From the NCBI GenBank assembly GCA_016218705.1, contig JACRDC010000001.1, positions 1 to 39,002 on the forward strand: a DNA stretch of 39,002 nt. The letters run 5' to 3'. The DNA comes from Desulfarculus sp. (GTDB lineage: Bacteria > Desulfobacterota > Desulfarculia > Desulfarculales > Desulfarculaceae). The translations under genes and the position numbers were made by a program. Under the pieces are notes generated by a model that was not told where the DNA came from, searched no databases, and was given only the letters and a program-made list of their open reading frames with translations. Of the stretch, positions 1 to 27,826 are shown one piece after another (the first letter of the stretch is position 1; the number at the start of each line of letters is the position of its first letter).

Positions 1-1116
1 AACGACATCTTCCGCACCAGCGCCATCAACGCCCTGACGCCCACCACCGCCCTGGCCGGCACCGACGGCGTCTTCGGCATCCGTTACAGCACCGACGGCG
101 GCACCAGCTGGAACACCTACGGCTACGTCAACGTCGACGCCAGCACCGACACCCTGACCGACGTGGTAGGCCGCATCAACCAGGGCTCCGCCCAAGCCGG
201 TTCTTTCAGCTTCACACCAGGCAGCGTCGTGGCCGGGGATAGCATCACCATCGGCGCCGACACGTTCACCTTCAACAACGGCACCGCGGCCACCACCTAC
301 AATGCCGCAACCCACACGGGCACCATTGATATTACTGCCGCCGCCGCCGGCACCACCTTCGCCAGCAAGGTGGCCGCCCTGATAAACCGGAATCTCAGCG
401 ACCTGAACCTCTATGCCACCAACTCCGGCGCCGCAACCAGCGTGATCTCGCTGACCTCCGCCACCCTGGGCAGCACCACCTCGATAGCCACCTCCGCCTC
501 CGCGAACGTCACCGCCAACCAGGCCTACCTCACTGGCGGCGCCGGCACCCAGGTCACCGCCTCGGTGTATCACGACACGAGCACGGGGTACTACCAGTTG
601 CAGTTGACCGACAACAGCAAGGGCAACAACTACCAGATGCGCATCGTGACTGGTACCGGCGCCGATGTGTTGCTGAGCGGCTCGGCCGACGCTACCCTGC
701 GCCTGAGGACCGCGCTCGACGGGTCCACTCAGATCGCCAGCTACACCCTCACCGACACCGCCGCGGAGTGGAGCGTGACCCAGAACGCCAGCGGCGTGAC
801 CAACTGGGATGGCAAGGACATCCTGACCCAGTCTGGTGCCCAGCTTGCCCTGGCCCAGTTGGACGCGGCCATCAACACCAAGGACAGCGCCCGCGCCAAC
901 CTGGGCGCCTTGCAGAACCGGCTGCAGAACACCATCACCAACCTGCAGATCCAGGCCGAGAACCTGCAAGCCGCCGAATCGCGCATCAGCGACGTGGACG
1001 TGGCCACCGAAATGACCATGTTCACCCGCAACAACATCATGGCCCAGGCGGGAGTGGCCATGCTGGCCCAGGCCAACAGCCTGCCGCAGTTGGCCCTCCA
1101 GCTCCTGCAGGGCTAG
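1..1116 (+). CDS. fliC: Flagellin, C-terminal part (gene starts before the window)
   Basis: This is the filament subunit exported through the flagellar type III system. The frame is open from base 1, so 371 residues are visible and the N-terminal D0/D1 part lies outside. The last ~90 residues are the classic flagellin C-terminal helix: ISDVDVATEMTMFTRNNI followed by QAG, AQANSLPQ and a Leu-rich end. The visible N-terminal two thirds is a Thr/Ser/Gly/Ala-rich variable domain with short beta-type repeats (for example DSITIGADTFTF and NVTANQAYLTGG), which would be the surface-exposed, glycan-accepting part. Dense sugar-synthesis genes follow, so O-glycosylation of this domain is a reasonable inference. 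A rho-independent-type hairpin ends the gene. Identification is secure; the full length cannot be given. Confidence 0.97.
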   Translation, partial: NDIFRTSAINALTPTTALAGTDGVFGIRYSTDGGTSWNTYGYVNVDASTDTLTDVVGRINQGSAQAGSFSFTPGSVVAGDSITIGADTFTFNNGTAATTYNAATHTGTIDITAAAAGTTFASKVAALINRNLSDLNLYATNSGAATSVISLTSATLGSTTSIATSASANVTANQAYLTGGAGTQVTASVYHDTSTGYYQLQLTDNSKGNNYQMRIVTGTGADVLLSGSADATLRLRTALDGSTQIASYTLTDTAAEWSVTQNASGVTNWDGKDILTQSGAQLALAQLDAAINTKDSARANLGALQNRLQNTITNLQIQAENLQAAESRISDVDVATEMTMFTRNNIMAQAGVAMLAQANSLPQLALQLLQG

Positions 1117-1170: not shown

Positions 1171-1212
1171 CCGGGCCCCATCCTCCAGCGAGGGTAGGGC
1201 CCGGCCCCTTTT
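1171..1212 (+). terminator. Hairpin terminator of the flagellin gene
   Basis: CCGGGCCC (1171-1178) and GGGCCCGG (1197-1204) form a perfect 8-bp outer stem, with CCTC/GAGG able to extend it inside the loop. A short T run (CCCCTTTT) follows. It lies 55 bases after the flagellin stop codon. Confidence 0.8.
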
Positions 1213-1604: not shown

Positions 1605-1620
1605 AGGCACGCTTCTTGAA
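1605..1620 (+). promoter_or_regulatory. Probable sigma-54 promoter for the flagellin-tail mini-protein
   Basis: AGGCACGCTTCTTGAA matches the -24/-12 form TGGCACG-N4-TTGC with GG and the TTG block 12 bases apart. The -12 dinucleotide is GA instead of GC. It starts 20 bases after the composite repeat and lies 67 bases before the ATG at 1687. It shares GGCACG-N4-TTG with the elements at 1927 and 22615. Confidence 0.55.
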
Positions 1621-1686
1621 TAAATTGGCGTATATCCCCGCCCAGAGGGGCGTGGAGTTCGTTTTCGCCATTTTGCGAGGAAAATC

Positions 1687-1893
1687 ATGCCTAGCACGCA
1701 CACCCCCCAGCATCCCCTGCCCGCCGCCCCCGCCGTGGCGGTTTGGGACCAGGCCTCCCCGCCGTCCCCGGAGATGGTCAGCCACGCCAAGGGGGGCATC
1801 CTGCGCCAGGCTGGCCAGGCCCTGCGCGCCCAGGCCAACAGCCTGCCCGGCCTGGCCTGCCATCTGCTGGCCGGCAGCCAGGGCGGCAACTGA
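1687..1893 (+). CDS. 68-residue protein with a flagellin C-terminal tail
   Basis: The ATG follows GAGG with a 6-base gap (GAGGAAAATCATG), and the frame is short but has the codon bias of real genes here. Residues 1-35 are Pro/Ala-rich and resemble nothing I know. The C-terminal half (about residues 36-64) copies the end of flagellin: ILRQAGQALRAQANSLPG aligns without gaps to the flagellin tail upstream, which has QAG, AQANSLP and LL at the same spacing. By eye 17 of 27 positions are identical. That tail is the FliS-binding, filament-core D0 helix in flagellins. The rest of flagellin is absent. It could be a remnant duplicate, but the promoter and ribosome-binding site argue that it is expressed. 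Possible roles are a FliS competitor, an export signal mimic or a filament cap/junction peptide; all are inference. Confidence 0.7.
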   Translation: MPSTHTPQHPLPAAPAVAVWDQASPPSPEMVSHAKGGILRQAGQALRAQANSLPGLACHLLAGSQGGN

Positions 1894-1926: not shown

Positions 1927-1942
1927 TGGCACGATACTTGTA
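1927..1942 (+). promoter_or_regulatory. Probable sigma-54 promoter of the glycosyltransferase operon
   Basis: TGGCACGATACTTGTA fits the RpoN consensus TGGCACG-N4-TTGCA at all but one of the key positions (GT instead of GC at -13/-12). Transcription would start near 1953, about 65 bases before the ATG at 2018. Flagellar late genes commonly use sigma-54 in this group. Confidence 0.7.
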
Positions 1943-1985: not shown

Positions 1986-2017
1986 CCGCCACCCCCACAT
2001 GGACGGTCGTGCCTATC

Positions 2018-5000
2018 ATGAAACGCAAGAAGCCACGGCCCACCCGCCGGGACCAAACCCCGGCCCCTGGCCCCGCCGCCCCGGCCCCCCCCGAGGCTTT
2101 GGCTGATAACACAAGTATTGCCGGTGAGTTGGAGAGAGCGCGCCAGCTTGTGGGCTTGGGCCGCCAGGACGAGGCCCTGGACCTCTTGACCAGCCTGGCC
2201 CAAGGGCCGGACCCCCGTCCCCAGGCTTTGCTGGCCCTGGCGCGGCTGTACATGGACAGACAGGAATATGCCCAGGCGGTGTCAGTTTTTCGTCGCTTGA
2301 CCGACGGGTCACCTCGCGATGCCAGCCTGCGCAACTCCCTGGCCATGGCCCTGGTCATGGCTGGCCAGCAGGACGAGGCCCAACCCCACCTGGAGGAGGC
2401 GGTGCGCCTGGCCCCCCGGGAGGGGGTGTTTCAGCTCAACCTGGGCAAATACTTCATCCTGCGCCAGGATTATGAGCAAGGCCACCGGGTGCTGGCCGGC
2501 CTGTGGCCTTGGGTGCCGCCCGATCTGCGCGACGACACCCTGGGCCATCTGAACCAGTGCCTGACCCAGTTGGGCCTGCCCCTGGTCAGCGCTGAAACAC
2601 CTTCCATCGAACGGCCTAGGCCTTCGGTCTCGCCGGCAAGCCCATCCTTCATGCCGGTTTCGACCTCCTCGAGAAAACTGCTGTTATGCTGTCCGCCGGG
2701 CCTGGACAATTTTGTGGACAGCTTAATCGCCGGCCTGGCCCCCGAAATCATCATTGAAAAACTGGTGAGCAGCGATATGGCGGTGTTGCGGCGCCGGCTG
2801 CGGGCTCACCAAAATATCTGGATTGAATGGGGCAACGAGCAGGCCATCCATATCACTAGGGAATTGGCCAAGGATTTGGTGGGCAAGCGGGTATTTTTAC
2901 GTATACACCATTACGAGGTCATCGTCGGCTTGGCCGAGCAAATCAACTATCACGCGGTGACCGACTTAATGTTTGTGGGCCTGGACATGCGCGACATGTT
3001 GTTGGCCAAATGTCCCCAGATACGCCAGTTGGTGCCACGCATTCACGTCGTTCCCAATGGCGTGGACATGCGGCGCTACGAGCTTGGGCGACCTTCACCC
3101 GGCTTTAACATCGCCTACATCGGCTATTTGAACTTCAAAAAAGCGCCCATGCTGCTGATGCATGCCTTTGAGCGCCTGTATCGCTCGCAGCCTAGCTGCC
3201 ACCTACACGTGGCGGGCGTGTACCAAGACCCTTTCCACCAGTTGGCGTGCAATTCGTTTGTCGGCAACAATGGATTGGAGCACGCGGTCACCTATCATGG
3301 TTGGGTCAAGGACATCAGCGCTTGGTTGGCCAATAAAAATTTCATCCTGTGTACCAGCTTATCCGAGAGCCAGGGCATGGGCCTGATGGAGGCCATAGCC
3401 AGTGGAGTGCGGCCTCTTATCTACAACTTCCCCGAGGCGCCAGGCATCTATCCCCGCCAATGGCTGTGGAACAACCTTGATGAGTTGGTGGAAATGCTTC
3501 ACGAACCCTACGGCCCGCAAGAGGGCCGGCGCTTCGTGGAGGAAAACTACTCCCTGGAGTTGCAGGTACAGCGCCTTAAGCAGATGCTCTTCGAGGAGTG
3601 CGAGGTGATCTTCGAAGGGCCCCGGGTGGAGCTGACCCGACTGCCGGCCACGCCGGAGGCCTGCTTCAGCGAGGACCTGCCCCAGCGCCTGGAGGCCAAC
3701 AAGAACTTCGGCTTGCAATTGAAGCAGACGGGGTGGCTGAAGGAGGCCTCGGTATTTCTGGAGCGGGCCTGGGCCCAGTCGGGCTACCAGGACCAGCAGG
3801 CCGCCCATGACCTCCTGGACTGTCACCTGCGGCGTGGCCACTACGACGGCCTGGCCCAGGTGCACCGCCAGATGGGCATGGCTGCCGCCAGCCGGGGCGA
3901 CTACGCGGCCATGCTGCAAGCCTTTTATAACGTATACTACAGCGCCTATGTAAACACCGCCAGCTACCGATGGCAGCACTTCGATCCGGCCATCGAGACG
4001 GTGCTCAAGCTCATCGCCCCCCATGTGGAACCCCTGCCCGCCCACGAGGGCCTAGCCGCCTGCCTGGACCCGGCCAAGCTCAAGGTGGTGCTTGTGCTGG
4101 AGTCCTTTGATCTGTCCTGGGCCACGGTCAGGCGCTTCGTGGACATCGGCAAGCGTCTGGACAAGTCGCGTTTCGAGGTGATCTACCTGACGCGCATGGA
4201 GTTGCAGCCTGGCTGGCGGCCGGTGCTTGAAGACCTCAGGACCCATGGCTGCCACCTGTTGTGGGACCAGGGGCATGACTACTACACCAAGATTCGCGGC
4301 TACCTCTACATACTGCGCCGCATCGGCTGCGACGTGCTGATGATGAACACTCAGTTCCTCACGCCCTGGTACGACCTGTTGGCCTTGGCCGGCGCCTCCC
4401 GCAAGGTGGTCAAATTTCTCGCCCAGGGAGGGGGGCTGGAGACTTCGCCCGACCTGGTGGTCAGCACCGTGCGGGGGGCCTTGGCCGACGAGTTGGCCCC
4501 GGGCGTCTATCTGGGACCGGCCTATGTCTCGGAGATAGCCCGCCGCCGGGGCCAGCGCCCCAGCCCGGCCGGGCGCCTCAAGGGGGTCTGCGTGGGGCGG
4601 CCCGTGAAGTTCATCAACAACCAAAGGTTCTGGACGGTGCTGAGCCAGGCCCTGCGGCAGTTGCCCGGCCTGGAGATAGACATCGTGGGTTCCCAGGCCC
4701 GCGAGATATTCGGCACCGACCACAGCCCCATGGAGCGGCTTTCCCTCCTGGGCTTCCGCCAGGACGCGCAGGAAATCCTGGCCGGCTACGATGTGATGAT
4801 AGACACCTGGCCCTCGGGCGGCGGCTGCACCATCCGCGAGGCCCACGCGGCGGGCCTGCCGGTTATCTCCTGCCGCACCCCCTGGCACGAGCATTACAGC
4901 GAGGGGGCCAGCTTCTACGGCGGCCTGGATGACTTCATCCACCCTGATCTCAGTCTGGAGGGCTTCGAGACTTCGGCCCTGGTCAGCCGCCTGGGCCGCT

Positions 5001-5146
5001 TGGCCCAGGATTTGGACTATTATCGCCGGGTTCAGCAGGAGTGCGCCCGCATCCCGGTGCTGACCCCGGCCCAGTTCGTGGAGCGCCTGGGCGAGACGTT
5101 GTGGAGGCTCTGCGGCCGGCCTGCTGGCCAGGGCGTGAGGCCATGA
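2018..5146 (+). CDS. TPR protein with two glycosyltransferase domains (probable flagellin glycosyltransferase)
   Basis: A 1042-residue cytoplasmic protein. A basic, Pro-rich start is followed by TPR-like helices (about 35-185; for example AQAVSVFRRLTDGSP). A GT4-type glycosyltransferase spans about 220-540, with the nucleotide-sugar motif SESQGMGLMEAIASG near 455. A second helical stretch (560-670) leads to another glycosyltransferase domain (about 690-1035) whose DTWPSGGGCTIREAHAAGLP block near 930 resembles the O-GlcNAc-transferase/SPINDLY type. Such TPR-GT41 proteins glycosylate flagellin or adhesins on Ser/Thr. The gene follows the flagellin gene and a sigma-54 promoter. I prefer ATG 2018 over GTG 2009 because GGACGG at 2001-2006 is well spaced only for 2018. 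The middle domain (about 2680-3560) is visibly less GC-rich than both ends, suggesting a fusion of parts with different histories. The exact sugar is unknown. Confidence 0.88.
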   Translation: MKRKKPRPTRRDQTPAPGPAAPAPPEALADNTSIAGELERARQLVGLGRQDEALDLLTSLAQGPDPRPQALLALARLYMDRQEYAQAVSVFRRLTDGSPRDASLRNSLAMALVMAGQQDEAQPHLEEAVRLAPREGVFQLNLGKYFILRQDYEQGHRVLAGLWPWVPPDLRDDTLGHLNQCLTQLGLPLVSAETPSIERPRPSVSPASPSFMPVSTSSRKLLLCCPPGLDNFVDSLIAGLAPEIIIEKLVSSDMAVLRRRLRAHQNIWIEWGNEQAIHITRELAKDLVGKRVFLRIHHYEVIVGLAEQINYHAVTDLMFVGLDMRDMLLAKCPQIRQLVPRIHVVPNGVDMRRYELGRPSPGFNIAYIGYLNFKKAPMLLMHAFERLYRSQPSCHLHVAGVYQDPFHQLACNSFVGNNGLEHAVTYHGWVKDISAWLANKNFILCTSLSESQGMGLMEAIASGVRPLIYNFPEAPGIYPRQWLWNNLDELVEMLHEPYGPQEGRRFVEENYSLELQVQRLKQMLFEECEVIFEGPRVELTRLPATPEACFSEDLPQRLEANKNFGLQLKQTGWLKEASVFLERAWAQSGYQDQQAAHDLLDCHLRRGHYDGLAQVHRQMGMAAASRGDYAAMLQAFYNVYYSAYVNTASYRWQHFDPAIETVLKLIAPHVEPLPAHEGLAACLDPAKLKVVLVLESFDLSWATVRRFVDIGKRLDKSRFEVIYLTRMELQPGWRPVLEDLRTHGCHLLWDQGHDYYTKIRGYLYILRRIGCDVLMMNTQFLTPWYDLLALAGASRKVVKFLAQGGGLETSPDLVVSTVRGALADELAPGVYLGPAYVSEIARRRGQRPSPAGRLKGVCVGRPVKFINNQRFWTVLSQALRQLPGLEIDIVGSQAREIFGTDHSPMERLSLLGFRQDAQEILAGYDVMIDTWPSGGGCTIREAHAAGLPVISCRTPWHEHYSEGASFYGGLDDFIHPDLSLEGFETSALVSRLGRLAQDLDYYRRVQQECARIPVLTPAQFVERLGETLWRLCGRPAGQGVRP

Positions 5147-21831: not shown

Positions 21832-22462
21832 CTAGGCCAGGTCCGGGGCCACCCAGTTGGCGCCGGCCGGCAGGCGGCCCTGGAGGGCCGCCAGGCTGAA
21901 GTCCAGGCTCTGGCGGTATAGCTCCTCCTTGAGTTGGGGCCGGCCCATCCATTGGGCCATATAGCCGCGCTCCTCGGCCACCTCCTGGCGGGCCAGCACC
22001 ACCCGCGCCAGCTCCTCCACTCCGCCGAAGTTGGCCTGGGCCCAGTCCGCGAGGCCCTGGGGGGACCAATCCGGCTCATCCGGCCCGCCCCACCGGCACC
22101 CTGTGCAACTTGAAGCGCTGGGAGGGCTGGCCCGGCGGCAAAAGCTCGCGCACCAGGGGGTGGCCCTCCAACAGGGGGCGGGTGGGGCCGGGGTCCATGT
22201 ACATTCTGAGCGGCCGGCCCTGGTTGCGGATCAGGCCCAGCAGCATCAGGGTGTCGCCCAGGGCCAGACCCTCGGGGGGGTGGCACTCCGAGGGCGACAA
22301 ATCCAGGTGGATGGGCAGGTCCAGGCGCTCCACGGTGTTGCGTAGGTGATGGGGGATGTCCTGTATCAGCCCCGGGGCCTCCTTTGGCCGGCGATGCCCC
22401 AACCCGGGGACGCGGGGCCTGCCGGGTTCTAGGCCCCGCGCGGGCCGGCTGTCAAAGATCAT
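21832..22462 (-). pseudogene. Frameshifted gene of an unrecognised family
   Basis: A good start (ATG at 22462, AAGGGG upstream) opens MIFDSRPARGLEPG and continues through LIQDIPHHLRNTVERLDLP and LALGDTLMLLGLIRNQG to a stop at 22076. Just before that stop, another frame takes over without a gap (DEPDWSPQGLADWAQANFGG to GANWVAPDLA, ending at 21832). Together they would make about 205 residues; one base lost or gained near 22080 explains the break. GDTLMLLGLI resembles the nucleotide-binding start of family 9 (heptosyltransferase-like) glycosyltransferases, but this is weak. The PxHLRNT block also occurs in the remnant at 1231-1383. A second in-frame ATG (ATGAGC) at the break could allow a separately translated downstream gene. 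Confidence 0.45.
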
Positions 22463-22614: not shown

Positions 22615-22630
22615 CGGCACGCATGTTGCA
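22615..22630 (+). promoter_or_regulatory. Sigma-54 promoter of fliD
   Basis: CGGCACGCATGTTGCA matches TGGCACG-N4-TTGCA at every position except the first, with GG and GC 12 bases apart. The predicted start is near 22641, 44 bases before the fliD ATG. This is the best sigma-54 site in the window. Confidence 0.78.
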
Positions 22631-25238: not shown

Positions 25239-25682
25239 ATGATGAACTACGGACAGAACCAATACCGCAAGACCCAGGTGGCCACCGTGGACCGCGGGCG
25301 TCTGATCGTCCTGCTCTACGAAGGGGCCATCAGCTTCTTGACCAAGGCCCGGGCCAGCATGGGCGATGGCGACATCCCCACGGCCTCCTCGCTGATCAAC
25401 CGCGCCCAGGACATCATAGACGAGCTGAACGCCTCGCTGAACATGGAGCAGGGCGGCGACATCGCCTACAACCTGCGCCGGCTCTACCTTTTCATGGGCG
25501 ACCAGTTGGTGCGGGCCAAGATCAAGGCCGACATCGAGCCCCTGGATGAGGTGGTGCGCATGCTGGCCAGCCTCAACGAGGCCTGGCGCGAGGCGGTGGC
25601 CAAGCCCGAGGCCCAGGAGGTGCTGAACCAGCAGCCGTCTCCGTCGGCGGCCGCCCAGACTCGGGGCGGCGTGCGCATATAG
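25239..25682 (+). CDS. fliS: Flagellin export chaperone FliS
   Basis: A 147-residue helical chaperone that binds the C-terminal tail of flagellin and prevents premature polymerisation. Typical features are YRKTQVATVDRGRLIVLLYE at the start, AISFLTKARASM and LNASLNMEQGGDIAYNLRRL, then YLFMGDQLVRAKIK. The first of two consecutive ATG codons (25239) is used, with GGGGTGA just upstream; an open frame reaches back to 25203 but lacks a site. It follows fliD by 94 bases and probably shares its transcript. The tail (QQPSPSAAAQTRGGVRI) is a disordered extension. As the binding partner of the flagellin tail, FliS is the natural candidate to bind the tail-like mini-protein at 1687-1893. Confidence 0.95.
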   Translation: MMNYGQNQYRKTQVATVDRGRLIVLLYEGAISFLTKARASMGDGDIPTASSLINRAQDIIDELNASLNMEQGGDIAYNLRRLYLFMGDQLVRAKIKADIEPLDEVVRMLASLNEAWREAVAKPEAQEVLNQQPSPSAAAQTRGGVRI

Positions 25683-27622: not shown

Positions 27623-27826
27623 ATACCAAATATGCAATCAAAGCCATCCATGGCTTTAATTGCTGACCGGCCGGGCAAAAGCGTGATTTTGCCCGTCCTC
27701 CCGGGCGCTTACGCGCCCGGCGGGCCATTCCCCGGGGTCCCCAAGCAAACGCAGTTTGCTTGGGGTGGATCCATGGCCCGCATGCCAAGTTGCGATCAAA
27801 CTATTCGTTTTATCGCAACTTGGTAG
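27623..27826 (+). repeat. Composite palindromic repeat, full copy 2
   Basis: A 204-bp copy aligned over its whole length with copy 1. It keeps the five-hairpin plan. The fourth stem is CCCCAAGCAAAC (27739-27750) and GTTTGCTTGGGG (27754-27765), whereas copy 1 has CCCCAAAAAAGC and GCTTTTTTGGGG: bases differ on both arms but remain complementary. The third stem is perfect here (CCGGGCGC / GCGCCCGG, 27701-27720). The terminal palindrome (27782-27826) has a few mismatches and ends TTGGTAG. Left boundary ATACCAAATATGC. Confidence 0.9.

Follow-up and report, generated by a model that had tools for sequence, protein, structure and literature searches.

The window analysed here, a stretch of 39,002 nt from a genome of Desulfarculus sp. 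(G000), begins inside a fliC gene. On the same strand, the 3' part of fliC is followed by a small open reading frame and then by a TPR-glycosyltransferase gene (Table 1). Position, strand, ATG start and length of 68 codons of the small frame agreed with a preliminary description of this DNA. Its predicted product is MPSTHTPQHPLPAAPAVAVWDQASPPSPEMVSHAKGGILRQAGQALRAQANSLPGLACHLLAGSQGGN. The coding score was +0.53 bits per codon in frame; the two remaining forward frames scored -0.69 and -0.78, and fliC +0.55.

Table 1. Features of the tail-gene locus and of the fliD-fliS region, in window positions.
Feature	Position	Strand	Details
fliC, 3' part	1..1116	+	contig begins inside the gene; Pfam Flagellin_C E 8e-25; tblastn match to the tail ORF
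Terminator-like hairpin (intrinsic) of fliC plus CCCCTTTT	1171..1212	+	RNA fold -31.4 kcal/mol, z -3.4; located 3' of fliC, before the tail gene
Sigma-54-type promoter-like site AGGCACGcttcTTGAATAAA (also given as AGGCACGCTTCTTGAATAAA and AGGCACGcttcTTGAA)	1605..1624	+	about 65 nt before the tail-gene ATG
Ribosome-binding site and start block GAGGAAAATCATGCCTAGCACGC	1677..1699	+	23/23 nt identical in the three-genome alignment
Free flagellin-tail gene	1687..1893	+	ATG, 68 aa; residues 1-28 Pro/Ala-rich linker, residues 29-65 D0-C-like tail
Conserved core GQALRAQANSLPGLACHLLAGSQ (residues 43-65)	1813..1881	+	1, 7 and 8 differences per 69 nt in the three pairs
Sigma-54-type site TGGCACGATACTTGTA of the TPR-glycosyltransferase gene	1927..1942	+	conserved in G003 and G001
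TPR-glycosyltransferase gene	2009..5146	+	conserved neighbour downstream of the tail gene
Sigma-54-type site CGGCACGCATGTTGCA before fliD-fliS	22615..22630	+	same in G003; close match in G007 (another genus)
fliS	25239..25682	+	Pfam FliS E 6e-39; TIGR00208 E 6e-25; only copy found in this genome

When the product was searched against its own genome with tblastn, residues 28-65 matched the fliC tail best after the self-match (E 1.1e-4, 50% identity over 38 residues). The homologous segment of fliC, which ends in RNNIMAQAGVAMLAQANSLPQLALQLLQG, lies at 1003-1116, and a DNA search within the region gave an 80% match over 51 nt (E 3e-9). Solved structures were searched with a profile built from the ORF and its relatives: the top match was chain B of 1ORY (E 1e-7), a flagellin peptide co-crystallised with FliS, and the second was a FliC-FliS chimera. 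NCBIfam returned weak matches to the flagellin C-terminus (best E 2.9e-4). A Pfam scan found no Flagellin_C (PF00700) match in this short piece, which contains only the last ~37 flagellin residues, and no Flagellin_N (D0-N/D1-N), the front being unlike MSLVINHN...; PHROGs and Pfam gave no meaningful match. Residues 29-65 align without gaps with the last ~37 residues of flagellin (FliC/Hag, PF00700), and AQANSLP and the terminal Leu-Leu are equally spaced. The earlier claims that the C-terminal half copies the FliS-binding D0 tail at flagellin spacing, and that all other flagellin parts are missing, were borne out. Unlike flagellin, the tail protein lacks D0-N, D1 and the rest of D0-C, and has its own Pro-rich front, a C-terminal extension (AGSQ...), Arg47 and Cys58. 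AlphaFold modelled, with low confidence, helices at 28-51 and 53-62 and an unstructured front.

Because the strong hairpin plus CCCCTTTT 3' of fliC is conserved in the relative G001 (z -6.2, RNA fold), transcription of fliC probably stops before the tail gene; the terminator assignment comes solely from the fold, and a simple pattern scan did not list the hairpin. A sigma-54-type promoter, proposed in the preliminary description, was recovered in part. A site with the -24 GG is present and was found upstream of 3/3 orthologues by pattern search, but it is degenerate and has GA instead of GC at -12. The proposed ribosome-binding site was recovered in full, as GAGG, a 6-nt spacer and the ATG within the start block that is identical in three genomes. 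In G003, the promoter-like site and the start block with its ribosome-binding site are set apart by a mobile repeat. It is a copy of a palindrome-rich, MITE-like repeat of ~203 nt (ATACCAA...TTGGTAT ends), which occurs in the window at 1383-1592 and 27623-27825 and has 99 matches in this genome and 49-103 in relatives. In G003, an open 378-aa ORF (L038 6440-7576, minus strand) also intervenes between the tail gene and fliC; remnants resembling it are seen in the window at 1310-1380 and 22076-22462.

The genus, a small one of groundwater bacteria, was sampled with six genomes, one of which (G005) is only 54% complete. Clear orthologues of the tail gene were found in G003 (70 aa) and G001 (69 aa), with identities of 76% and about 52%. 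Both relatives are MAGs (Desulfarculus sp. NC_groundwater_1546 and Deltaproteobacteria bacterium WY2.bin153), and in both the orthologue lies 3' of fliC, directly before the TPR-glycosyltransferase gene. A scan of the named-genome contigs found no tail genes beyond these two relatives. In G002, a divergent tail-like ORF follows fliC-fliC-TPR (L040 15168-15414), its GTG start overlapping the TPR stop; it matched the flagellin-tail profile weakly (E 0.019 among 8,718 frames) and is a candidate for a possible distant family member. G004, the most distant genome by FliS and the first outgroup, has fliC without a tail gene at the locus seen, and one origin of the tail gene within the genus would fit.

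A profile search covering about 460 genomes (63 from the class, 395 from the phylum) found no other free tails, although strongly diverged ones would escape the profile. Short open-frame tails at contig ends in seven genomes were rejected as flagellins cut by the contig end. A candidate in G309 (L167 1336-1833) was rejected as a truncated flagellin relic with D1-C/D0-C only, located beside a transposase-like ORF. We also rejected the idea that the fliC tail was recently duplicated in tandem, since none of the flagellins checked has the residues shared by the orthologues.

The residues kept and lost were determined against 25 flagellin tails of relatives and by gap-free mapping to solved flagellins, including 6LEA. 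All three orthologues retain I38, A45, A48, Q49, A50, N51, S52, L53, P54, L56, A57, L60 and L61. At near-invariant flagellin positions they share the changes N36>G, L47>R (the position before AQAN) and L58>C, the latter two of which occur in 0/25 of the relatives' flagellin tails. As the same non-flagellin residues are present in all three, the tail genes appear to have been inherited as one gene and not to decay independently. Contacts to FliS reported for H. pylori FlaB (PMC7248283) include A500, Q501, N503, L512 and L513, which correspond to A48, Q49, N51, L60 and L61 of the tail and are all retained. They also include E481 and K487, which are E29 and K35 in the window protein; the Phe at the F485 position is lost. 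The B. subtilis Hag residues reported to be needed for docking of FliS-flagellin to FlhA are Q297, V299, L300 and R304 (PMC6070490), and the tail has G55, A57, C58 and A62 in their place. Only Q297 and L300 are informative here, since the window's own fliC also differs from Hag at V299 and R304; the Leu at the L300 position is invariant in the 25 flagellins. The residues kept and lost predict that FliS binding is retained and FlhA docking lost, and they fit a tail peptide that can still sit on FliS but would make a poor export complex. Homology to the co-crystallised peptide, the retained FliS-contact residues and a conserved, independently placed gene support a putative role in FliS-binding tail mimicry.

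FliS is the predicted partner of the tail protein. Because the tail gene and fliD-fliS have sigma-54-type sites, whereas the fliC genes of the lineage have sigma-28-type promoters (TTAAAG...GCCGATCA), the tail protein is probably co-produced with FliS, ahead of flagellin. Sigma-54-type motifs are enriched in this genome (72 sites vs 11 in reversed controls). A similar site, GGCACGCGCCTTGAATATA, conserved in G003, was seen elsewhere (L091 at 1500; G000:C46:5155), before a tiny ORF that starts with MGTIAIIALVGCGLLWVAAVVEFSRTL.

We rate as unlikely the main rival to the decoy reading given below, namely that the frame is a decaying fragment of a second flagellin gene that stays open by chance in GC-rich DNA. 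Long open frames arise easily at such a GC content, a true flagellin relic beside a transposase-like ORF exists in the phylum (G309), and the neighbouring gene at this locus is already reduced to remnants. The preliminary description had named two signs of a decaying duplicate: loss of the gene or its frame in close relatives, and equal rates of synonymous and nonsynonymous change. Gene and frame exist in relatives, which speaks against decay. Pooled dN/dS, however, is about 1 and speaks for it (0.81 for G000-G003, 1.30 for G000-G001, 0.94 for G003-G001), compared with 0.13-0.28 for FliS and 0.36-0.42 for the glycosyltransferase. The equal rates apply to the front, as purifying selection is not seen in the linker or in codons 29-42, and not to the start block and core. 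Between G000 and G001, codons 29-42 even outpace the neutral yardstick, and half of the presumed FliS-binding helix is therefore not conserved. Constraint appears to be confined to the region around the start and to the final ~23 codons, which is the strongest point against the mimicry reading. The blocks conserved in the three-genome alignment are the start block, these final codons and the sigma-54-type site that belongs to the downstream gene. An identical start block argues against a relic, and so does the depletion of change in the core, where 1, 7 and 8 differences fall below the expectation from the FliS synonymous rate (P 2e-4, 0.02 and 8e-4, taking that rate as a fair neutral yardstick and with blocks chosen after seeing the alignment). 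The same applies to the reading frame, which survives divergence of the linker and length differences of 3 and 6 nt, to the retained promoter-like site and to the non-flagellin residues common to all three orthologues; the conservation evidence for the family comes from only three clear sequences.

It is improbable, in our estimate, that the tail acts as a co-chaperone that stabilises FliS or helps it to fold without competing with flagellin. In H. pylori, HP1076 improves the folding of FliS in vitro, and a null mutant for it is motile (PMC7248283), but the segment carried by the tail is precisely the one that flagellin places in FliS, and competition is therefore expected. Slightly less probable again is that the small gene serves the glycosyltransferase gene as a leader peptide, or that its product acts on a target other than FliS, such as FlhA, FliW or the glycosyltransferase encoded next to it. 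The conserved adjacency to the glycosyltransferase gene and the overlap of the G002 ORF with the TPR stop are in favour of such a role, but a conserved sigma-54-type site belonging to the glycosyltransferase gene follows the tail gene, and FliW recognises N-terminal and D1 regions of flagellin (PMC6070490), which the tail protein does not have. That the tail is part of the filament or is exported as a peptide is very hard to credit: flagellin homology is all that suggests it, whereas D0-N, D1 and the N-terminal export region are missing and the invariant Leu58 and Leu47 positions are altered.

We give about even chances to the reading that the tail protein is a FliS-occupying decoy or place-holder, encoded by a real, genus-restricted small gene. 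From the gene itself, its conservation, its homology to a FliS-bound peptide and its promoter-like motifs we infer expression of the protein, FliS binding, displacement and an effect on assembly. A copy of the fliC 3' end would have been the source of the gene; it would have acquired a sigma-54-type promoter and a start codon of its own, been fused to a disordered linker free of constraint, and diverged thereafter. Produced in one regulatory class with FliS, earlier than the sigma-28-dependent flagellin, the tail would occupy the FliS pocket. This complex would keep FliS occupied until flagellin accumulates and, through its additional D1 contacts, displaces the tail. The tail-FliS complex should not be exported, since it has no flagellin N-terminus, which is needed for export, and its FlhA-docking positions are changed. 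This more specific form, in which a sigma-54-class decoy sets up a chaperone-occupancy checkpoint, is tentative, and we hold it a little less probable than not. As to the two roles suggested earlier, titration of FliS by a free tail is plausible, and plugging of the export gate found no direct support.

Bacteria have to hold back the synthesis and export of flagellin until the hook is ready, and one point of control is FliS, where FlgM, FliW/CsrA and HP1076 come into play. If the decoy reading is true, cells regulate a chaperone by copying its client's own ligand, and the tail would be a compact peptide tool for studying FliS. The preliminary description knew of no such protein, and we found no earlier description of a free flagellin-tail protein in the searchable open-access literature, which is weak evidence of absence. 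We place it with the FliS-binding flagellin mimics, as neither a flagellin nor an HP1076 homologue. The anti-sigma-28 factor FlgM is a small partner that FliS is proposed to hold until flagellin takes its place (PMC8527033). FlgM is a sigma-28 inhibitor and is exported, and a sequence relation to the tail protein is not expected. HP1076 of H. pylori, reported to be RpoN-dependent, competes with flagellin for FliS by mimicking D1 (PMC7248283). No HP1076 homology was seen among the PDB sequence matches of the tail protein, and the low-confidence model gives two helices, not a D1-like bundle. By analogy, both are small non-flagellin proteins that mimic a part of flagellin and would be expected to compete for FliS, and the tail gene has a conserved sigma-54-type site, with a deviating -12, which may or may not reflect RpoN-type control like that reported for HP1076. 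HP1076, with 171 aa, is a D1 mimic that uses the D1 interface, whereas the tail protein copies the D0-C tail itself; the free tail would thus be the D0 counterpart of the D1-mimicking HP1076.
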